Assembly: GCA_035528575.1 (NCBI GenBank)
Contig: DATKYK010000028.1
Location: 1 to 60,067, forward strand
Direction: 5' to 3'
DNA from: Dehalococcoidia bacterium
GTDB taxonomy: Bacteria; Chloroflexota; Dehalococcoidia; E44-bin15
Length of the DNA stretch: 60,067 nt
Shown here piece by piece: positions 8,726 through 17,754 of the stretch. The notes beneath the pieces were generated by a model that did no database searches, was not told the DNA's origin, and worked only from the letters and a program-made list of their open reading frames with translations. A program made the translations under genes and the position numbers. Numbering within the stretch: position 1 is the stretch's first letter; each line of letters opens with the position of its first letter.

Positions 8726-9481
8726 TCAATCCTTCTTTTTTGGTATGAAGGCGCTGAGCAGGTCCAGGGGCAGGGGGAATACCAGGGTATTGGTCTTCTC
8801 GGTGGCGATCTCGGTAAGAGTCTGTAGATAGCGCAGTTGCAGCGTTGTCGGCTCCCTGCCGATTATAGCGCCCGCCTCAGCTAGCTTTACAGAAGCCTGC
8901 AGCTCGCCCTCAGCGTGGATGATCTTGGCGCGCCGCTCGCGTTCCGCCTCAGCCTGTGCCGCCATCGCCCGCTGCATTGAGCTGGGCAGCTCCACATCCT
9001 TTACCTCCACCACACTCACCTTGATTCCCCAGGGCTCCGTCTGCTCATCGATGATCTGCTGCAGCTGCTGATTTATCTTTTCGCGGCGCGCCAGCAGCTC
9101 ATCAAGCTCGGATTGGCCCAGCACGCTCCTTAAGGTGGTCTGAGCGATCTGGTAGGTGGCCAGCCTGTAGTCAAAGACCTCAATTACAGCAGCCTCCGGG
9201 TGCATCACCCTGAAGTAGACCACCGCGTTCACCTTGAGTGTAACATTGTCCCTGGTGATCGCCTCCTGAGAGGGAACATCCATGGTGATAGTACGAGTGT
9301 CCACCTTGCGCATGCGGTCGAGGAAGGGGATGATAAAGCGTATCCCCGGTCCTCTAGTCTTCTCCAATCGGCCCAGCCGAAACACAACGCCAGCCTCATA
9401 CTGGTAGACGATCTTTATGGACGCCGGCAGCAGGATGAGCAGTAGTGCCGCCACTACGGCAATAATTATCACCCAATCCAT
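8726..9481 (-). CDS. Slipin (stomatin/SPFH-domain membrane protein)
   Basis: The 251-residue product has one N-terminal membrane helix ([18 protein letters not shown]) followed by an SPFH/Band-7 domain ([37 protein letters not shown]). A coiled coil of the [17 protein letters not shown] type completes it. Slipins assemble into membrane-microdomain scaffolds. The start is ATG 9481, which has GAGGAGG at ideal spacing; the GTG at 9490 overlaps that site. It lies one base after the nfeD stop, the conserved NfeD-slipin operon in which the protease cleaves the slipin C-terminus (known for the Pyrococcus 1510-N/1511 pair). Confidence 0.92.
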
Positions 9482-9482
9482 A

Positions 9483-10781
9483 TTATTCACCTCCTCTATT
9501 TTTCTTGACTACCCTTAGTTTTAAGCCATCGACCCTGGTTATCACCACCTCCTCTCCTATCTCAACCTTTCCTTCGTCCAGTGTTGCCTCCCAGCGTTCC
9601 CCGTGCACAAACACGGTTCCTGTTGGGTCGAGGGTTGTTCTGGCTACCGCCACCATGCCCACCATCGCCTCTCGCCCTGTCTGCTGTCGCCTTCGGTGGG
9701 TGCGCAGGATAGCCCCGATAACAAAGACGCCAACGATGGTGAACACGATCACCACCCCGGCGATAACACCTGGACTTATCTGGAAAAAGGGACTGCCCAT
9801 CAGGATCATCGAGCCCACGGTAAACGTTGCAATGCCGCCCATGGCAAGCAACCCGTGACTGGATATAAAAACCTCTGCCACAAATAGCCCAAAGGCGAGA
9901 ACGATCAGTAATACCCCGGCATAGTTGACCGGGAGCATCCCTAGGGAATAGAAGGAAAGAAAAAGGCAGATGGCACCGACGACCCCGGGGAAGATGGTCC
10001 CCGGATGAAACAGCTCCAGCATGATACCGAGCATCCCCAGGCTCAGCAGGATGTAGGCGATATTCGGGTCCGCGATTGTGAAGAGAAAGCGCTCCATGGC
10101 ACCCATGTCGGTGTAATCAATTTTGGCACCATCGGTCTTAAGGGTGACCTCCTCCCCGCTTAATAGTGTCACCTGCCATCCATCAAGCTGGATGAGGAGG
10201 TCATCCAAATTATTTGCCACAATATCTATAACCCCCAGCTCCAGGACCTCCGAGGCGGGACTTGACCTGCTCTCCCTTACCGCAGCCTCGGCCCAGTCTA
10301 CATTGCGACCTCGTGCCTCTGCAATGCTTATGATATATGCAACGGCGTCGTTTACCACCTTCTGCTCCATGGTCTCATCTATCCCATCCTCGCCCAGGGC
10401 CACGGGGTGGGCGGCCCCAACTTCGGTGCCCGGTGCCATCGCCGCTACGTGAGATGCGAGTGTGATAAATGCCCCCGCCGAGGCAGCCCTCGACCCTGGC
10501 GGAATATAGACCACCACTGGAATATTCGCCTCCAGGATACGCTGCACAATGTCACGCATGGCACTGTCTAACCCCCCTGGCGTATCCATCTCAATGACGC
10601 AGGCGGTGGCGCCATGCTCCTCAGCCAGCCCGATTCCGCGGTCAATATAGCCAGCAAGGACAGGGTTTACCGTCCCCTCAACCCTGAGGACATCCACCTG
10701 TGGAGTGGCCGCACTAGCTTCCCCGGGTATAAAGAGGATGAGCAACCCGAGCGCTATAAGGAAAAGCCAGAGCTTTCTCAT
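9483..10781 (-). CDS. nfeD: NfeD family membrane serine protease (long form)
   Basis: A 432-residue protein: signal peptide (about 1-25, ending ASAA), a ClpP-like protease domain (30-215), four or more membrane helices (230-360) and a C-terminal OB-fold (375-432). The catalytic Ser is in [10 protein letters not shown] and the oxyanion region is DTPGGL, as in the 1510-N protease that uses a Ser-Lys dyad. It is expected to cleave the hydrophobic C-terminus of the slipin encoded next. A good promoter lies 30-60 bases upstream on the minus strand. Confidence 0.92.
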
Positions 10782-10971: not shown

Positions 10972-11020
10972 TCGGGGAAAGGAATCTAATATTTCCCACC
11001 CGCCCTCCCTGATATGTATT

Positions 11021-11148: not shown

Positions 11149-12384
11149 ATGAAAGTGCCAAGATGTAAAGGGATGCGTGATCTGCTTCCCGATGACATGG
11201 TGAAGTTTCGGCAGATCGAGGAGGTCTTTCGCCGCTGCTCGATAAAGTGGGGCTATGAGGAGGTGAGAACCCCGATGCTCGAGTATCTCCACCTTTTTAC
11301 CGCCACCGGGACGCTGACCCCGGGTATGCTTGGCAGAGTGTATTCCTTCCTTGACTGGGATGGCTGGAGTGGCGAAAGGGTGGTACTGCGACCGGAGGGC
11401 ACTATCCCCACCGCGAGACTATATCTGGAAGACTTCGCTGGTGACGAGATATCCCGGCTTTCCTATGTGGGAAATACCTTTACCTTTGAAGAAACGGGAA
11501 GGGAGCAGAGGGAGCGCTGGCAGTGCGGTGTTGAGCTCATCGGAAAAAGCCAGCCCCTCGCTGATGTGGAGCTTGTGCTTCTAGCCTCGGAGGTGCTTGG
11601 TAAACTGGGACTCGGTCCCCTGGAGGTAAAGCTATCCCACGCTGGCTTGATCAAGGCGCTCATAGAGGAGCTCGGATTGGGGGCTGCGGAGCAGACCCAG
11701 ATATTGGACCAGGTGCTGGAGGGTAATATAAAGGCACTGGGTGATATTGAGACCCAGGATGCTGACCTAAAACAGGCGCTAGCCCTTTTAATGGATGTCA
11801 CCGGGAGCTCTCCCGGCTTTCTGGAGAACGTAAGGACAATCCTTGGAAATGCCCTGCCCAGGTTTGAGCCTAGCCTGAAAGACCTTGCCAGCATTGCCGA
11901 GCTACTTGGCGCTATGGATTGCCCCTACCAGATCGATATCGCTTCAGGTAGAGGCTTTGAATACTATACAGGGGTAATATTTCAATTCGATATCTCCAAT
12001 AAGCGGGTTGGAGGAGGGGGAAGATACGATGACCTGATCTCGCTGGTGGGTGGACCTTCCATTCCAGCATCGGGTTTTGCACTGTATATAGATCAACTGA
12101 TGGATCTCCTGAAGCTGGAGGAGAGGCCGGTGCCGGGGATCCTGATCCAGTACCAGGAAGGCAGTATGACTGGGCTCAAGTCCTGCTTTGAGGTGGCTCG
12201 CTCACTGAGGGACTCGGGATATATCGTTCAGCTTGACCAGGGACAGAAGGCGGTGGGCGATTATCGATGGCTTCTTACGGTGTCAGGGAAGGGCCTTTTC
12301 CGCTTAACCGATCAGGCTACCGGTGAAAAGCATGAACTTGCCTCCGAGGCGGAGATTCGGCAGGCAATGGAGAGTTCCGGGTGA
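11149..12384 (+). CDS. hisZ: ATP phosphoribosyltransferase regulatory subunit
   Basis: A 411-residue paralogue of histidyl-tRNA synthetase that forms the regulatory partner of short-form HisG in histidine synthesis. The class II synthetase core is visible (GMRDLLPDD, RPEGTIPTARLYL, ASGRGFEYYTGVIF, GGGGRYDDLI). I call it HisZ, not HisS, because it is joined to hisG by a 4-base overlap and heads a his operon. The start is ATG 11149 with AAAAAGGTGG upstream; a longer in-frame extension to 11014 runs through the GC-rich repeat and the promoter. Confidence 0.88.
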   Translation: MKVPRCKGMRDLLPDDMVKFRQIEEVFRRCSIKWGYEEVRTPMLEYLHLFTATGTLTPGMLGRVYSFLDWDGWSGERVVLRPEGTIPTARLYLEDFAGDEISRLSYVGNTFTFEETGREQRERWQCGVELIGKSQPLADVELVLLASEVLGKLGLGPLEVKLSHAGLIKALIEELGLGAAEQTQILDQVLEGNIKALGDIETQDADLKQALALLMDVTGSSPGFLENVRTILGNALPRFEPSLKDLASIAELLGAMDCPYQIDIASGRGFEYYTGVIFQFDISNKRVGGGGRYDDLISLVGGPSIPASGFALYIDQLMDLLKLEERPVPGILIQYQEGSMTGLKSCFEVARSLRDSGYIVQLDQGQKAVGDYRWLLTVSGKGLFRLTDQATGEKHELASEAEIRQAMESSG

Positions 12385-13814
12385 AGCTGGCGCTACCGAA
12401 GGGGCGACTCTTAAAGGATAGTGCATCTTTACTGGAGAGGGCAGATGTCGGGCTTGAGGGGTATGATAAGCGGTCGCGCTCCTATCGCCTGAAATCATCC
12501 AGATTCCCCGACCTGTTTTTCAAGGTGTTCCAGGAGCGGGACATCCCCATTCAGGTGGCTATTGGAAACTACGATTTGGGAATCTGCGGGCTGGACTGGG
12601 TGGAGGAGCTCATGGCGAAATACCCCAGCGGCGAACTGGTGAAGCTGAGGGACCTGGGGTATGGCAGGAGTGATATTTATATAGTTACCAGCGGGCATTC
12701 CGGTGTCTCCTCGCTTGAGGAGATCAACGATAGATTTGCTCAGGTGCGCATCGTCAGCGAGTATCAGAACATGGCGGAATCATTCGCACGAAGGCAGAGG
12801 CTTAGGCGTTTCAGTATTCTCCCAATATATGGTGCTGGTGAAGTCTACCCACCGGAGAGCGCCGACCTAGCAATAATCACTGAAGCCTCTGCGGGCAGCT
12901 TTGCAAGCTACGACCTGGTTCCACTGTCGAGGATCCTTACCTCAAATGCTACCTTAATCGCCAATAGGAACAGCCTGGCAAAGGCTGATCTGAGCGAGTT
13001 CCTGGGATGCCTGCAGCCCTTTGCGGCGGAAACTAAATCGGGGACAGTTTTACCCGCCGCTGGCGAGGTAAAAGGAGGAAAAATTCAAGCGGTTAAAGGG
13101 CTAGGGGACAAGGTAGAGGGCAGGGTCGGAGACAGTGAAGTAACTCGCCTAGCCCTGCCCGATGGGCACCTGTTGAAATCGGCCGCGGAGTTCCTCGAAA
13201 AAGCAGGCCTAAACATCCGGGGGTACTCGGGGGCACCCGCCACCCGCAGGCTGACCACTGATTTGCCCGGAGTTATGATCAAGGTGATCAGGCCCCAGGA
13301 CATGCCACTCCAGGTAGCAAATGATAACTTTGACCTGGCCATCACCGGCGAGGATTGGCTTAAAGACCACCTCTATCGCTTCCCCTCAAGCCCGGTAAAG
13401 GAAATCCTAAAACTGGGGTTCGGGAAGGTAACCCTGGTTGCTGTGGTCAGCCAAGATCTGCCCGCACGCGACGTCCATGAATTGAGGGACCTGGTCACGG
13501 GAGGTTATATTCCCTCTCTCAGGGTAGCTTCGGAGTATGTGAACATCGCCGATAAGTATGCCCGGGATAATCACCTGGGGCGCTTCAAGATAATCCCCAC
13601 CTGGGGGGCGAGCGAGGCCTTTCTGCCTGAGGATGCCGACCTGCTGATCGAAAACACCGAGACCGGTGAGACCCTGGCGAGGCACAACCTGGCGGTTATA
13701 GATACCGTCTTTGAGTCCTCGGCATGCCTTATCGGACACCGGGACACTCTTTCCCATACCTCGAAGAAAGGCGGAATCGAACGTATAATAGATATTATCA
13801 GGAAGGGCTGCTAA
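12381..13814 (+). CDS. hisG: Tandem-duplicated ATP phosphoribosyltransferase (HisG-HisG)
   Basis: First enzyme of histidine synthesis (ATP + PRPP). The 477-residue protein is about twice the length of short-form HisG (around 210) because two HisG domains lie in tandem (1-205 and 253-477) with a linker between. Domain 1 begins with the classic LALPKGRL, but its PRPP loop is degenerate (SAGSF at 170-174). Domain 2 begins with a degenerate LALPDGHL (257-264) yet keeps the PRPP loop TGETL (428-432). Both keep the DLGICG/DLAITG segment and the SEYxN segment. It overlaps hisZ by 4 bases. I infer a composite or pseudo-dimeric enzyme; alternatively one half is only structural. Confidence 0.87.
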   Translation: MKLALPKGRLLKDSASLLERADVGLEGYDKRSRSYRLKSSRFPDLFFKVFQERDIPIQVAIGNYDLGICGLDWVEELMAKYPSGELVKLRDLGYGRSDIYIVTSGHSGVSSLEEINDRFAQVRIVSEYQNMAESFARRQRLRRFSILPIYGAGEVYPPESADLAIITEASAGSFASYDLVPLSRILTSNATLIANRNSLAKADLSEFLGCLQPFAAETKSGTVLPAAGEVKGGKIQAVKGLGDKVEGRVGDSEVTRLALPDGHLLKSAAEFLEKAGLNIRGYSGAPATRRLTTDLPGVMIKVIRPQDMPLQVANDNFDLAITGEDWLKDHLYRFPSSPVKEILKLGFGKVTLVAVVSQDLPARDVHELRDLVTGGYIPSLRVASEYVNIADKYARDNHLGRFKIIPTWGASEAFLPEDADLLIENTETGETLARHNLAVIDTVFESSACLIGHRDTLSHTSKKGGIERIIDIIRKGC

Positions 13815-13879: not shown

Positions 13880-14641
13880 ATGCCGTTACTTTATCTTCAC
13901 CTGAGCATTGCCCAGGAGGCAGCAGAGCTGATGCATCATCCCGTAGTAGACCTGAACATGGGAGGCTACCTGGTGGGAACCATCTCGCCCGATGTACACC
14001 ACATTAGCGGTGTCTCACGAAGCGAAACTCACTTTTTCGACCTGGACAAGAAAGAGTATGAGAGCGGGACACGTCTGCTGTTTGAAGCTCATCCCGACCT
14101 TGCCCGAGGGAATAGTCTGGATGCTGCAACGAGATCTTTTATTGCTGGCTACCTCTCCCACCTCATTGTCGATGAGGTCTGGATTAAGGATGTCTATCGC
14201 CCTTTCTTCGGCAATTTATCACCGCTCGGCGGGGACCCGATGGCTAACGCTCTCGACAGGCTGCTCCAGTTCGAGCTTGACCGAAGGGAAAGGGAGGATA
14301 AAGCGAAGATGGCAGCGATTCGGGCTGAGCTCTGCCAGTGGGAGCCACGGGTAAATATCGATTTTCTGGCGACCACTACCCTGCGCCAGTGGCGGGACTT
14401 CGCCTGCGCCGCGATGGCCCGGGAGGTAAAACTGGCCGATTTTCCACCATTTGCCCGAAGCTTCCTTCTCCCCAGCAAAAAGATCGATGCTGAGCAGCTA
14501 GAGCCGTTCCTTTTATCAGTGCCGGATAAGCTGGATTGGGCTATTCAGCATGTTACCCCCCAGCGGCTCACCGCCTTCCGGGGGAAAGCCATAAGCCAGT
14601 CTGTGAAAGCGGCCAGGGAGTATTTGGGTGAAGATAATTAG
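13880..14641 (+). CDS. Zinc-dependent phospholipase C-like protein
   Basis: A 253-residue protein of the zinc-dependent phospholipase C/S1-P1 nuclease-like fold. Recognisable elements are LHLSIAQEA near the N-terminus, GYLVGTISPDVHHISG (metal-binding Asp and His) and GYLSHLIVDEVW (His and Asp). No signal peptide is evident, so a cytoplasmic role is likely and the substrate is unknown. It sits inside the histidine operon and its end overlaps hisD by 14 bases, so it is translationally coupled to hisD though no histidine step is known for this family. Confidence 0.75.
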   Translation: MPLLYLHLSIAQEAAELMHHPVVDLNMGGYLVGTISPDVHHISGVSRSETHFFDLDKKEYESGTRLLFEAHPDLARGNSLDAATRSFIAGYLSHLIVDEVWIKDVYRPFFGNLSPLGGDPMANALDRLLQFELDRREREDKAKMAAIRAELCQWEPRVNIDFLATTTLRQWRDFACAAMAREVKLADFPPFARSFLLPSKKIDAEQLEPFLLSVPDKLDWAIQHVTPQRLTAFRGKAISQSVKAAREYLGEDN

Positions 14642-15956
14642 TGATTTTCAAAAGGCTAAAGCTGTATTGCAGCGTGCCACCTTTGACCTAGGTGAAGCCC
14701 CTCTTGAGGTGAAACGAAGGATAAAAGAGGCCTTCGCTATTGAACTCACCCCTGAGGAGGCGGTGGGCCGGATCATCGCTGCGGTGCGAGATAAAGGGGA
14801 TGCAGCCCTGCTGGACTTTACCCGGAGGATTGACGGAATAGCGCTGGAATCTCTGGAGGTAAGCGGGCAGGAGCGCCGCGAAGCCCATGGAAAGGTGGAT
14901 CGGGAGCTCATCGCGGCGCTTAATATCGCTGCGGAGCGGGTGCGCTCATTTCACCAGACCCAACTGCGACACAGTTTCATGCAATTTATGGAAGGCGGAC
15001 TGGGGCAGACCGTCCGCCCCCTAGAGAGGGTAGGCATCTATGCGCCCGGCGGCACTGCCTGCTACCCATCGACGGTACTAATGACGGCGATCCCGGCCCG
15101 GGTCGCCGGGGTGGAAGAGATCATCCTCACCACTCCTCCTGCAAATGGGGGCTATGTCCCCCCGGCTACCCTGGTGGCAGCAGATATAGCCGGGGTAGAC
15201 CGGGTTTTCAAGGTGGGGGGTGCTCAGGCCATCGCCGCCCTTGCCTATGGCACCGAGTCCATCCCTAGGGTGGATAAGGTCTGCGGGCCAGGCGGACTTT
15301 TCGTGACCCTGGCTAAGCGCATGGTCTTCGGCGCAGTCGCTATTGATGGCCTCGCAGGGCCCACCGAGACTTTGATAGTGGCCGACGACTCCGCCTCTCC
15401 TGACCGCTGCGCTGCCGACCTTCTGGCACAGGCGGAGCACGACGTACTGGCCACCGCAATACTGATTACCACCTCCTCCAGGCTGGCTAAGGCTGTGGAC
15501 AAATGGGTGACACGCCAGCTCGAAGGGCTGGAGCGGTCCCAAATTGCCCGCCGCTCTCTGGAGGGAAGGGGCAGGATAATCGTGGTAAGCGATATGGAGC
15601 AGGCGATTGAACTGGTTAACATCTATGCTCCGGAGCACGTCTCTTTAATGGTTCGCGATGCCCCGTCATATATAGAACGGATCCGCCACGCCGGGGCTAT
15701 CTTCATCGGCGAAAATTCACCCGGGGTGCTGGGTGACTACGTTGCCGGGCCGAGCCATGTTTTACCTACGGGAGGAACTGCCCGCTTCTGCTCCTCCCTC
15801 GGGGTGGGCGATTTCCTAAAGCTCACCAGCATCATTTCTTTGAGCGACGAGGATGTAGAGGCGCTGGGTCCTGCTGCGTCGACCATCGCCGTAGCGGAGG
15901 GGCTCACCGCCCACGCCCGAGCCGCAGAGCTAAGGCTGAAGAAGGGTGGTAAATGA
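14628..15956 (+). CDS. hisD: Histidinol dehydrogenase
   Basis: Catalyses the last two steps of histidine synthesis, oxidising L-histidinol to L-histidine with two NAD+ and a catalytic zinc. The 442-residue length is normal. Family signatures include PGGTACYPSTVLMTAIPA, KVGGAQAIAALAYGT, KVCGPGG, LLAQAEHD and YAPEHVSLM. The start is GTG 14628, inside the end of the phospholipase-like gene. It is followed by hisC with a 4-base overlap. Confidence 0.96.
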   Translation: MKIISDFQKAKAVLQRATFDLGEAPLEVKRRIKEAFAIELTPEEAVGRIIAAVRDKGDAALLDFTRRIDGIALESLEVSGQERREAHGKVDRELIAALNIAAERVRSFHQTQLRHSFMQFMEGGLGQTVRPLERVGIYAPGGTACYPSTVLMTAIPARVAGVEEIILTTPPANGGYVPPATLVAADIAGVDRVFKVGGAQAIAALAYGTESIPRVDKVCGPGGLFVTLAKRMVFGAVAIDGLAGPTETLIVADDSASPDRCAADLLAQAEHDVLATAILITTSSRLAKAVDKWVTRQLEGLERSQIARRSLEGRGRIIVVSDMEQAIELVNIYAPEHVSLMVRDAPSYIERIRHAGAIFIGENSPGVLGDYVAGPSHVLPTGGTARFCSSLGVGDFLKLTSIISLSDEDVEALGPAASTIAVAEGLTAHARAAELRLKKGGK

Positions 15957-17071
15957 TGGGCGATATCGCAAGGGGGAGGGGGCAAGGTGGGGATATCGAA
16001 AAAATGATGCGGGGCGACCTATTGGGACTCAAGGCATACCAGCCCATCATACCCCTCGATGTGCTAAGCGAACGGGCTGGTGTCCCCACCGAGGGGGTGA
16101 TAAAGCTCGACGGCAACGAGAACCCCTATGGCTGCTCGCCGAGGGTAGGACGTGCCCTTGCCGGTTACCCCTTCTATCACATCTACCCCGACCCGGAGCA
16201 GCGTGAAATACGAAAATCATTAGCGGGATATGTTGGGGTGGATGCAGCACATATCATAGCCGGCGCCGGCAGCGACGAGCTCATCGACCTCATCCTGCGC
16301 CTCTTCCTCAAGCCCGGCGATGGCGTTATCAACTGCGTTCCCACCTTCGGTATGTACCACTTCTGCACCGAGATTTGCGGTGGTAAGGTTAGCGAAGTAC
16401 CCAGGGACAAATCCTATGCCATCGATATCACCGGTGTAAAAGAGGCTGTAAATGAAAAAACCAAGGTCATCTTCGTCACATCGCCAAATAACCCCACGGG
16501 GAATATCACCCCCCAGCGCGATATACTGGAGCTGGTTAAGCTGGGTAAGGTTGTAGTGATCGATGAGGCATACTATGAATTCAGCGGGACCACCGTCGCC
16601 CCACTGGTTCCCCAGTATGAAAACCTGATCGTGCTTCGCAGCTTCAGCAAATGGGCAGGGCTCGCCGGGCTGCGCATTGGCTACGGGATATTCCCTACCC
16701 TGATCGCAGAACAGCTCATAAAGATCAAGCAACCTTATAACATAAACCTGGCGGCTCAGGTTGCGCTTAAGGAGTCGCTTGCCGACATCGAATACCGCAA
16801 GGGCACGGTGCAAAAAATTATCTCAGAACGGGAGCGTCTTACCCAAAAACTCGGCGAGCTCAAGTCTCTAAGGCCATTCCCCTCCCAGGCCAATTTCATC
16901 CTCTGCACCGTGGTTAAAGGGGATGCCCGGGTGATTTACGAGGGGCTGCAGAAAAGGGGCATCTTCATCCGCTACTTCGACACCCCACTCCTGAGAAACT
17001 CGATTCGCATCAGCGTGGGCAAGCCGGAGCACACCGATGCCCTCATTGAAGCACTGAAGGAGATGTGCTAA
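15953..17071 (+). CDS. hisC: Histidinol-phosphate aminotransferase
   Basis: A PLP enzyme converting imidazole-acetol phosphate to histidinol phosphate. The PLP lysine is in RSFSKWAGLAGLRIGYG. Other family motifs are LDGNENPYGCSP near the N-terminus, AGAGSDELIDL, SPNNPTGN and IDEAYYEF. The 372-residue form has about 25 extra residues before the family's normal beginning. ATG 15953 overlaps the hisD stop and has GGGTGG upstream, so I keep it. Confidence 0.95.
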   Translation: MMGDIARGRGQGGDIEKMMRGDLLGLKAYQPIIPLDVLSERAGVPTEGVIKLDGNENPYGCSPRVGRALAGYPFYHIYPDPEQREIRKSLAGYVGVDAAHIIAGAGSDELIDLILRLFLKPGDGVINCVPTFGMYHFCTEICGGKVSEVPRDKSYAIDITGVKEAVNEKTKVIFVTSPNNPTGNITPQRDILELVKLGKVVVIDEAYYEFSGTTVAPLVPQYENLIVLRSFSKWAGLAGLRIGYGIFPTLIAEQLIKIKQPYNINLAAQVALKESLADIEYRKGTVQKIISERERLTQKLGELKSLRPFPSQANFILCTVVKGDARVIYEGLQKRGIFIRYFDTPLLRNSIRISVGKPEHTDALIEALKEMC

Positions 17072-17148: not shown

Positions 17149-17754
17149 ATGGCAAGACAAAGTGTGAAAAAAAGAACAGCTACCATTACCCGTGAGACCG
17201 GAGAGACAAAGATAAGTATTGAGTTCTCCCTCGACGGCAGGGGGAAGTTTGAGATCGTGACCGGCAGCAAGATGTTCGACCACATGCTGACTCATATTGC
17301 CCAGCACGGTTTATTTGACATAACTATTTCAGCCTCGGGCTGGGACCAGCACCACGTGGTGGAGGATGTGGCCATATCACTGGGCCAGGCGTTAAATAAG
17401 GCGCTGGGGGATAAGAAGGGCATTACCCGCATGGGGCATGCCATCGTGCCGATGGATGAGGCGCTCGCCCTGGTGGCGGTTGACCTTTCCGGCAGGGGAT
17501 ATGCGGTGATAGATGCGTCTTTCAAGAGGAAGAAGATAGGTGACCTGGAGAGCGACCTGGTGCGCCATTTCCTGGATACCTTCGCCCTGGAGGCAAAGAT
17601 GAACCTCCACGCCAAGGTGCTTGCCGGTATCAACGACCATCACAAGGCAGAGGCTATCTTCAAGGCGCTGGGGCGGGCGCTGGATAGCGCCACCAAGATC
17701 GATGCGCGGCTCAGTGGCAAAGTGCCCAGCACTAAAGGGGTTATTGAGGGCTAG
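17149..17754 (+). CDS. hisB: Imidazoleglycerol-phosphate dehydratase
   Basis: Dehydrates imidazoleglycerol phosphate to imidazole-acetol phosphate, one step before HisC. The 201-residue monofunctional form carries the manganese ligands in [20 protein letters not shown] and [24 protein letters not shown] precedes the ATG. A 77-base spacer separates it from hisC. It appears to be the last gene of this his operon, and the next genes are convergent. hisA, hisF, hisH and hisIE are not in the window. Confidence 0.95.

Follow-up and report, generated by a model that had tools for sequence, protein, structure and literature searches.

ATP phosphoribosyltransferase (HisG), a textbook case of allostery, is known in two accepted designs, the long form and the short form that works with HisZ. 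The 60,067-nucleotide stretch of Dehalococcoidia DNA analyzed here (the window) contains a reading frame in which two HisG domains, D1 and D2, share one chain (Table 1), with PKGRL and SAGSF in D1 and PDGHL and ENTETGETL in D2. A preliminary description of the window had given both the fusion and these motifs correctly and had read the latter as complementary decay, D1 keeping KGRL and losing the PRPP loop and D2 the reverse, such that the two halves would jointly build one site from KGRL and the PRPP loop, or one of them would have become regulatory. How, then, might such a chain work? The answer that we favor, and hold with somewhat more belief than doubt on the evidence of sequence comparison, is an asymmetric HisG pseudo-dimer in which D2 would form the sole catalytic site and D1 would be a constrained, pseudo-catalytic partner that keeps a trans-acting arginine.

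Both profile families that describe the enzyme, PF01634 (196.3 bits) and TIGR00070 (239 bits), find two HisG stretches in the frame with scores above their curated cut-offs; neither Pfam nor NCBIfam shows any other domain in the 477 residues, the HisG_C regulatory domain (PF08029) being absent. An AF2 model of the whole chain had a mean pLDDT of 87.3 and a pTM of 0.85 (79-sequence alignment), the latter implying that the placement of D1 relative to D2 is confidently predicted. In a structural comparison that listed D2 only, this half matched known HisG chains with Z 20-24. A frameshift, an assembly error or a pseudogene is ruled out as the source of the arrangement by more than 200 intact fusions, including some in single-contig genomes. 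Nor is it a chance occurrence, as the same architecture was found in 201 distinct sequences, over which conservation was counted, and both the loss of the loop from D1 and the DGH of D2 are clade-wide.

Table 1. Features of the window (positions on the window; aa, residues of the fusion protein; fractions refer to the 201 distinct fusion sequences)
Feature	Position	Strand	Remarks
SPFH/NfeD-like gene pair	8726-10781	-	Divergent from hisZ; named from sequence
hisZ	11149-12384	+	Frame already open at 11014; ATG at 11149 is the likely start
hisG-hisG fusion ORF (hisGG)	12381-13814	+	477 aa; GTG start; stop 13812-13814; open and intact
D1, N-terminal HisG domain	12381-13025	+	aa 1-215; putatively pseudo-catalytic; Pfam/NCBIfam and PDB sequence matches to HisG
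D1 K7-G8-R9	12399-12407	+	P. arcticus K30-G31-R32; within PKGRL, aa 6-10
D1 R33	12477-12479	+	P. arcticus R56 equivalent; mapped by PDB sequence comparison
D1 Q51	12531-12533	+	P. arcticus R73 position; arginine lost here
D1 degenerate PRPP loop	12876-12908	+	aa 166-176; SAGSF where PRPP loop expected
Linker	13029-13130	+	aa 217-250; predicted disordered; AF2 pLDDT <50
D2, C-terminal HisG domain	13140-13811	+	aa 254-477; catalytic candidate; Pfam/NCBIfam, HisG sequence and structure matches
D2 D261-G262-H263	13161-13169	+	In place of KGR; within PDGHL, aa 260-264
D2 R289-R290	13245-13250	+	P. arcticus R56-K57 positions; R289 168/201, R290 197/201
D2 R304	13290-13292	+	P. arcticus R73 position; R 200/201, remaining one an undetermined letter
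D2 E412	13614-13616	+	P. arcticus E163; 201/201
D2 intact PRPP loop ENTETGETL	13650-13676	+	aa 424-432; TGx[TS] 201/201
Zinc-dependent phospholipase C-like gene (PF00882)	13880-14641		Between hisGG and hisD
hisD	14628-15956	+	ORF named from sequence
hisC	15953-17071	+	ORF named from sequence
hisB	17149-17754	+	ORF named from sequence

The genome to which the window belongs (G000; 2.3 Mb, 96.25% complete) was searched as a whole and gave no second HisG match, another complete hisG being what, according to the preliminary description, would have spoken against its reading. The presence of hisZ, also claimed there, is borne out: the gene lies directly upstream, its 3′ end overlapping the start of the fusion by 4 bases, and a separate hisS (a second HisRS-like gene) is on contig C20 of the same genome. 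The hisZ product scores 196 bits with PF13393 and 207 bits with TIGR00443, the latter below the model cut-off, as in 58 of the 60 Dehalococcoidia genomes searched. hisZ precedes hisGG in 99 of 101 loci, and the order hisZ-hisGG-hisD-hisC-hisB is conserved in approximately 100. Genes of the hisA/hisF type, hisI and hisH are present elsewhere in the genome. For hisE there was no clear match in the whole of it; the sole PRA-PH match reached just 24 bits and lies in a frame of 259 aa that is perhaps MazG-like. The neighborhood also holds genes of other kinds, the PF00882 gene having a relative at the same operon position in 30 of 101 loci and an NfeD-like gene adjoining hisZ in 59 of 101.

When the whole fusion protein was searched against 393 Dehalococcoidia genomes, 351 matched; in approximately 240 of these the match (E <1e-35) was to the fusion or to parts of it at contig ends, and in approximately 109 it was weak, as for a lone HisG. 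The preliminary description had suggested a survey across Chloroflexota; in a phylum-wide sample, the fusion was not found in any other class, and the matching genomes there had single-domain matches only. Its named relatives are Dehalococcoidia or Chloroflexi MAGs, although two of them (L134 and L158) are labeled Deltaproteobacteria. In a domain tree of 43 D1, 43 D2, 14 lone HisG and 4 PDB sequences, D1 and D2 are each monophyletic, and so is their union, which stands apart from lone HisG (support 100/97); this indicates one duplication-fusion as the simplest history. Family f15 includes complete single-contig genomes, 1.4-2.1 Mb in size, in which the fusion is the only HisG match. Dehalococcoides grows in minimal medium (PMC5764234), and its HisG must therefore work; if f15 is the Dehalococcoides family, the fusion is the sole HisG there. 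In family f34, some genomes have a lone HisG only and others the fusion only, while G126 and G264 carry both, a pattern that would fit replacement of the lone HisG by the fusion or the reverse, and hence the same function. Sixteen genomes had two or more HisG matches, mostly at contig ends or within one ORF, and for this reason split genes were dropped as evidence of working heterodimers. D1 and D2 are separate ORFs only in G054 and perhaps in G069 (a poor MAG). In G054 (L187, 2328-3693) they are two 232-aa ORFs, the second ATG lying just past the first stop, and this arrangement is either a natural split or an indel.

To place the residues of the two halves, P. arcticus HisG numbering was fixed from PDB sequences (5M8H against the R56A entry 7Z6R), such that KGR is K30-G31-R32, SRKL contains R56-K57 and RASDV holds R73. 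In that enzyme, E163 binds the ribose of PRPP and R56 extends to the pyrophosphate of the PRPP bound by the partner subunit of the dimer (PMC9734150), while R73 (Ab R70) contacts the γ-phosphate of the other subunit's ATP (PMC10998830). The hallmark of HisG, a PRPP loop with a conserved glutamate, is present in D2, whereas the loop is gone from D1 in 195 of 201 fusions, the TGx[TS] pattern being found in only 6. Within D1, 196/201 fusions have R or K at position 33. K7 is kept in 173/201, including all of the clade with KGx in D1 to which the window belongs (the KGR clade), and has changed just once on the tree. R9, on the other hand, is present in 130 fusions and missing in 71, having changed no fewer than 19 times on the fusion tree; the earlier statement that D1 keeps KGRL thus holds for the window but not for the fusions at large. 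Position 51 is R in only 28/201. It is mostly H, Q or N in the KGR clade, and the opposite is seen in a sub-clade with TGD or AGD in D1 (families f3, f18, f26, f34, f59 and others), in which R is mostly kept there. Six D1 residues, D54, Q58, Y64, E76, R140 and G151, are invariant (129/129 sequences).

The claim of complementary decay fares differently in the two domains. The loss of the PRPP loop from D1 is real, but the DGH of D2 is, on the sequence record, a fixed motif and no decay, because H263 is invariant (201/201, with D261 in 200/201; few positions in D1 are as conserved) and lone HisG proteins also depart from KGR. Among the latter, KGS is found in L003, L005 and L274-L281, KGE in L006 and L011-L013, DGE in L004, and IGH in L022, which comes from the same order as the window; the structurally solved HisG of M. 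tuberculosis has KGA. The absence of the KGR arginine from D2 is therefore no sign that this half needs the motif of D1. In P. arcticus, the R32A mutation had a 25-fold cost without HisZ, and with HisZ most activity was restored (PMC9734150). Many lineages can dispense with this arginine, whose catalytic importance was measured in P. arcticus. Coupling within D2, which would also count against a site shared with the D1 motif, is strongest between position 267 in the DGHQQ region and position 427 in the PRPP loop of this domain, but the pair is not significant when the tree is allowed for (paired test, median p 0.22), and the underlying mean-field analysis of 201 sequences for D1-D2 contacts was mostly noise, with approximately 40% of the top pairs inter-domain.

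Both halves are under purifying selection, with median pairwise dN/dS values of 0.17 (D1) and 0.13 (D2). Although clearly constrained, D1 is the faster-diverging half (mean identity 50%, against 58% for D2; less similar than D2 in 97% of pairs). The idea that one half had become regulatory or non-catalytic fits better than that of a jointly built site, because D1 has lost the loop and evolves faster while still under purifying selection. In the pseudo-dimer, the two-chain dimer of HisG would have been turned into one chain for the first step of histidine synthesis; in D2, PRPP would be bound by the intact ENTETGxT loop together with E412, and DGH would serve in place of KGR, while D1 would not bind PRPP and would be retained as dimer partner. 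By analogy with P. arcticus, R33 of D1 would probably be lent in trans to the D2 site, and this loan would be one form of a shared site. HisZ would bind the pseudo-dimer, activate it and bring histidine feedback, as in short-form enzymes. As the sole HisG in a his operon, the fusion would catalyze the conversion of ATP and PRPP to PRATP; that D1 and D2 pair as in HisG homodimers, that D2 alone is catalytic and that HisZ is so arranged are points that we infer. Counting for the pseudo-dimer are its standing as the only HisG, the kept operon, the complete D2 site in all 201 fusions, the loss of the D1 loop, the retention of R33, the lone HisG proteins that do without KGR, the selection on both halves, the single duplication, the AF2 arrangement and the growth of Dehalococcoides in minimal medium. 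Counting against it is the near invariance of R304, chiefly, and of R290 in D2, which the model does not require; by homology, R304 would point at the empty cleft of D1 in a D1:D2 pair. Additionally, D1 of the window's clade is without the R73 equivalent (Q51 in the window) that would serve the D2 site, and K7-G8 is strictly conserved in that clade, which suggests that the D1 cleft still has some role.

Such a role is what the next reading supplies, in which the D1 cleft would be a regulatory nucleotide site, for ATP, ADP or AMP and without PRPP binding, that tunes D2. K7-G8 from D1 and R289/R304 from D2 would form it, giving one catalytic and one sensing site per dimer. We consider it unlikely, if worth keeping in view. 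It would account for the persistence of K7 with R9 free to vary, and for R304 and R290 of D2, the R73 equivalent being the residue that reaches the other subunit's ATP in P. arcticus. The TGD/AGD clade, however, has lost the D1 motif and retains R304, and this residue may be structural. A second alternative pairs D2 with the D2 of another chain as a symmetric dimer, leaving D1 outlying, where it would contact HisZ or stabilize the complex. All the trans residues that such a dimer needs (R289, R290 and R304) are indeed kept in D2, and the R73 equivalent is lost from D1 in most sequences; the AF2 model nevertheless sets D1 and D2 together, and the conservation of R33 in D1 is left unexplained, which makes this arrangement quite improbable. 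Last, a composite site to which D1 would give KGR and D2 the PRPP loop, as in the preliminary description, has in its favor that the window, like the other fusions among the 130, holds both the D1 arginine and the D2 loop, but it is rejected, with very little probability left to it, on the repeated loss of R9, whose many changes mean that it is not the obligatory half of a shared site (a role that the sequences argue against strongly) and which is absent from the whole TGD/AGD sub-clade, and on the lone HisG proteins that work without this arginine.

Several known systems resemble the fusion. It shares the HisG fold, hisZ and a his operon with the short-form HisG_S enzymes of P. arcticus (5M8H/6FU2), A. 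baumannii (8OY0) and L. lactis (1Z7M), likewise lacks HisG_C, and has an intact PRPP loop in D2 and the trans arginines in D2 and partly in D1. HisG_S is a homodimer of approximately 210-aa chains; in the fusion, by contrast, the D1 loop is lost and D2 has DGH instead of KGR, although Arg32 is not a defining feature of HisG_S. The fusion is therefore a variant of the short form and not a plain member, because its two HisG domains share one 477-aa chain. Long-form HisG_L enzymes (M. thermautotrophicus 2VD3, M. tuberculosis 1NH8/5LHT, and lone Chloroflexota proteins such as L003, L005 and L022) also depart from KGR. Each half finds its best match among PDB sequences in 2VD3, the lone HisG proteins that stand closest to the fusion on the tree are long-form, and HisG_C is present in L003-L006, L012, L018 and L022; unlike these, the fusion has a second HisG domain in place of HisG_C, plus HisZ.

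To our knowledge, HisZ is usually described solely with short-form HisG. Long-form HisG with HisG_C adjoins hisZ in approximately 10 Dehalococcoidia genomes, including those of L004, L006, L012 and L018 (G041, G017, G051 and G053).

Tandem duplication and fusion into two paralogous modules is known as gene elongation in hisA, hisF, hisB and hisD; a review of such events names none for hisG and describes the other his enzymes as without internal repeats (PMC7284861), and the open-access papers searched contained no account of a hisG-hisG fusion. Pairs of catalytic and pseudo-catalytic proteins, such as HisZ as a dead paralogue of HisRS, offer a further parallel in that a duplicate loses its substrate site and stays as partner, but in the fusion the putative pseudo-enzyme is covalently joined to its active paralogue. 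Fold and reaction are known; as a fusion in which one half is probably dead, the protein is a variant of the known enzyme.

For the Dehalococcoidia, the nucleotide-site reading, to which we give only a small share of belief, would mean a built-in sensing regulator of an active twin, added to the feedback through HisZ. On the pseudo-dimer reading, the fusion, usually the only copy of HisG in the genomes that carry it, would be a third, class-wide architecture of the enzyme, in which each chain combines a live HisG domain with a dead one. Annotation tools label it simply as HisG, which conceals the putatively dead half. Such a chain would be a natural test of how much each subunit needs the other.
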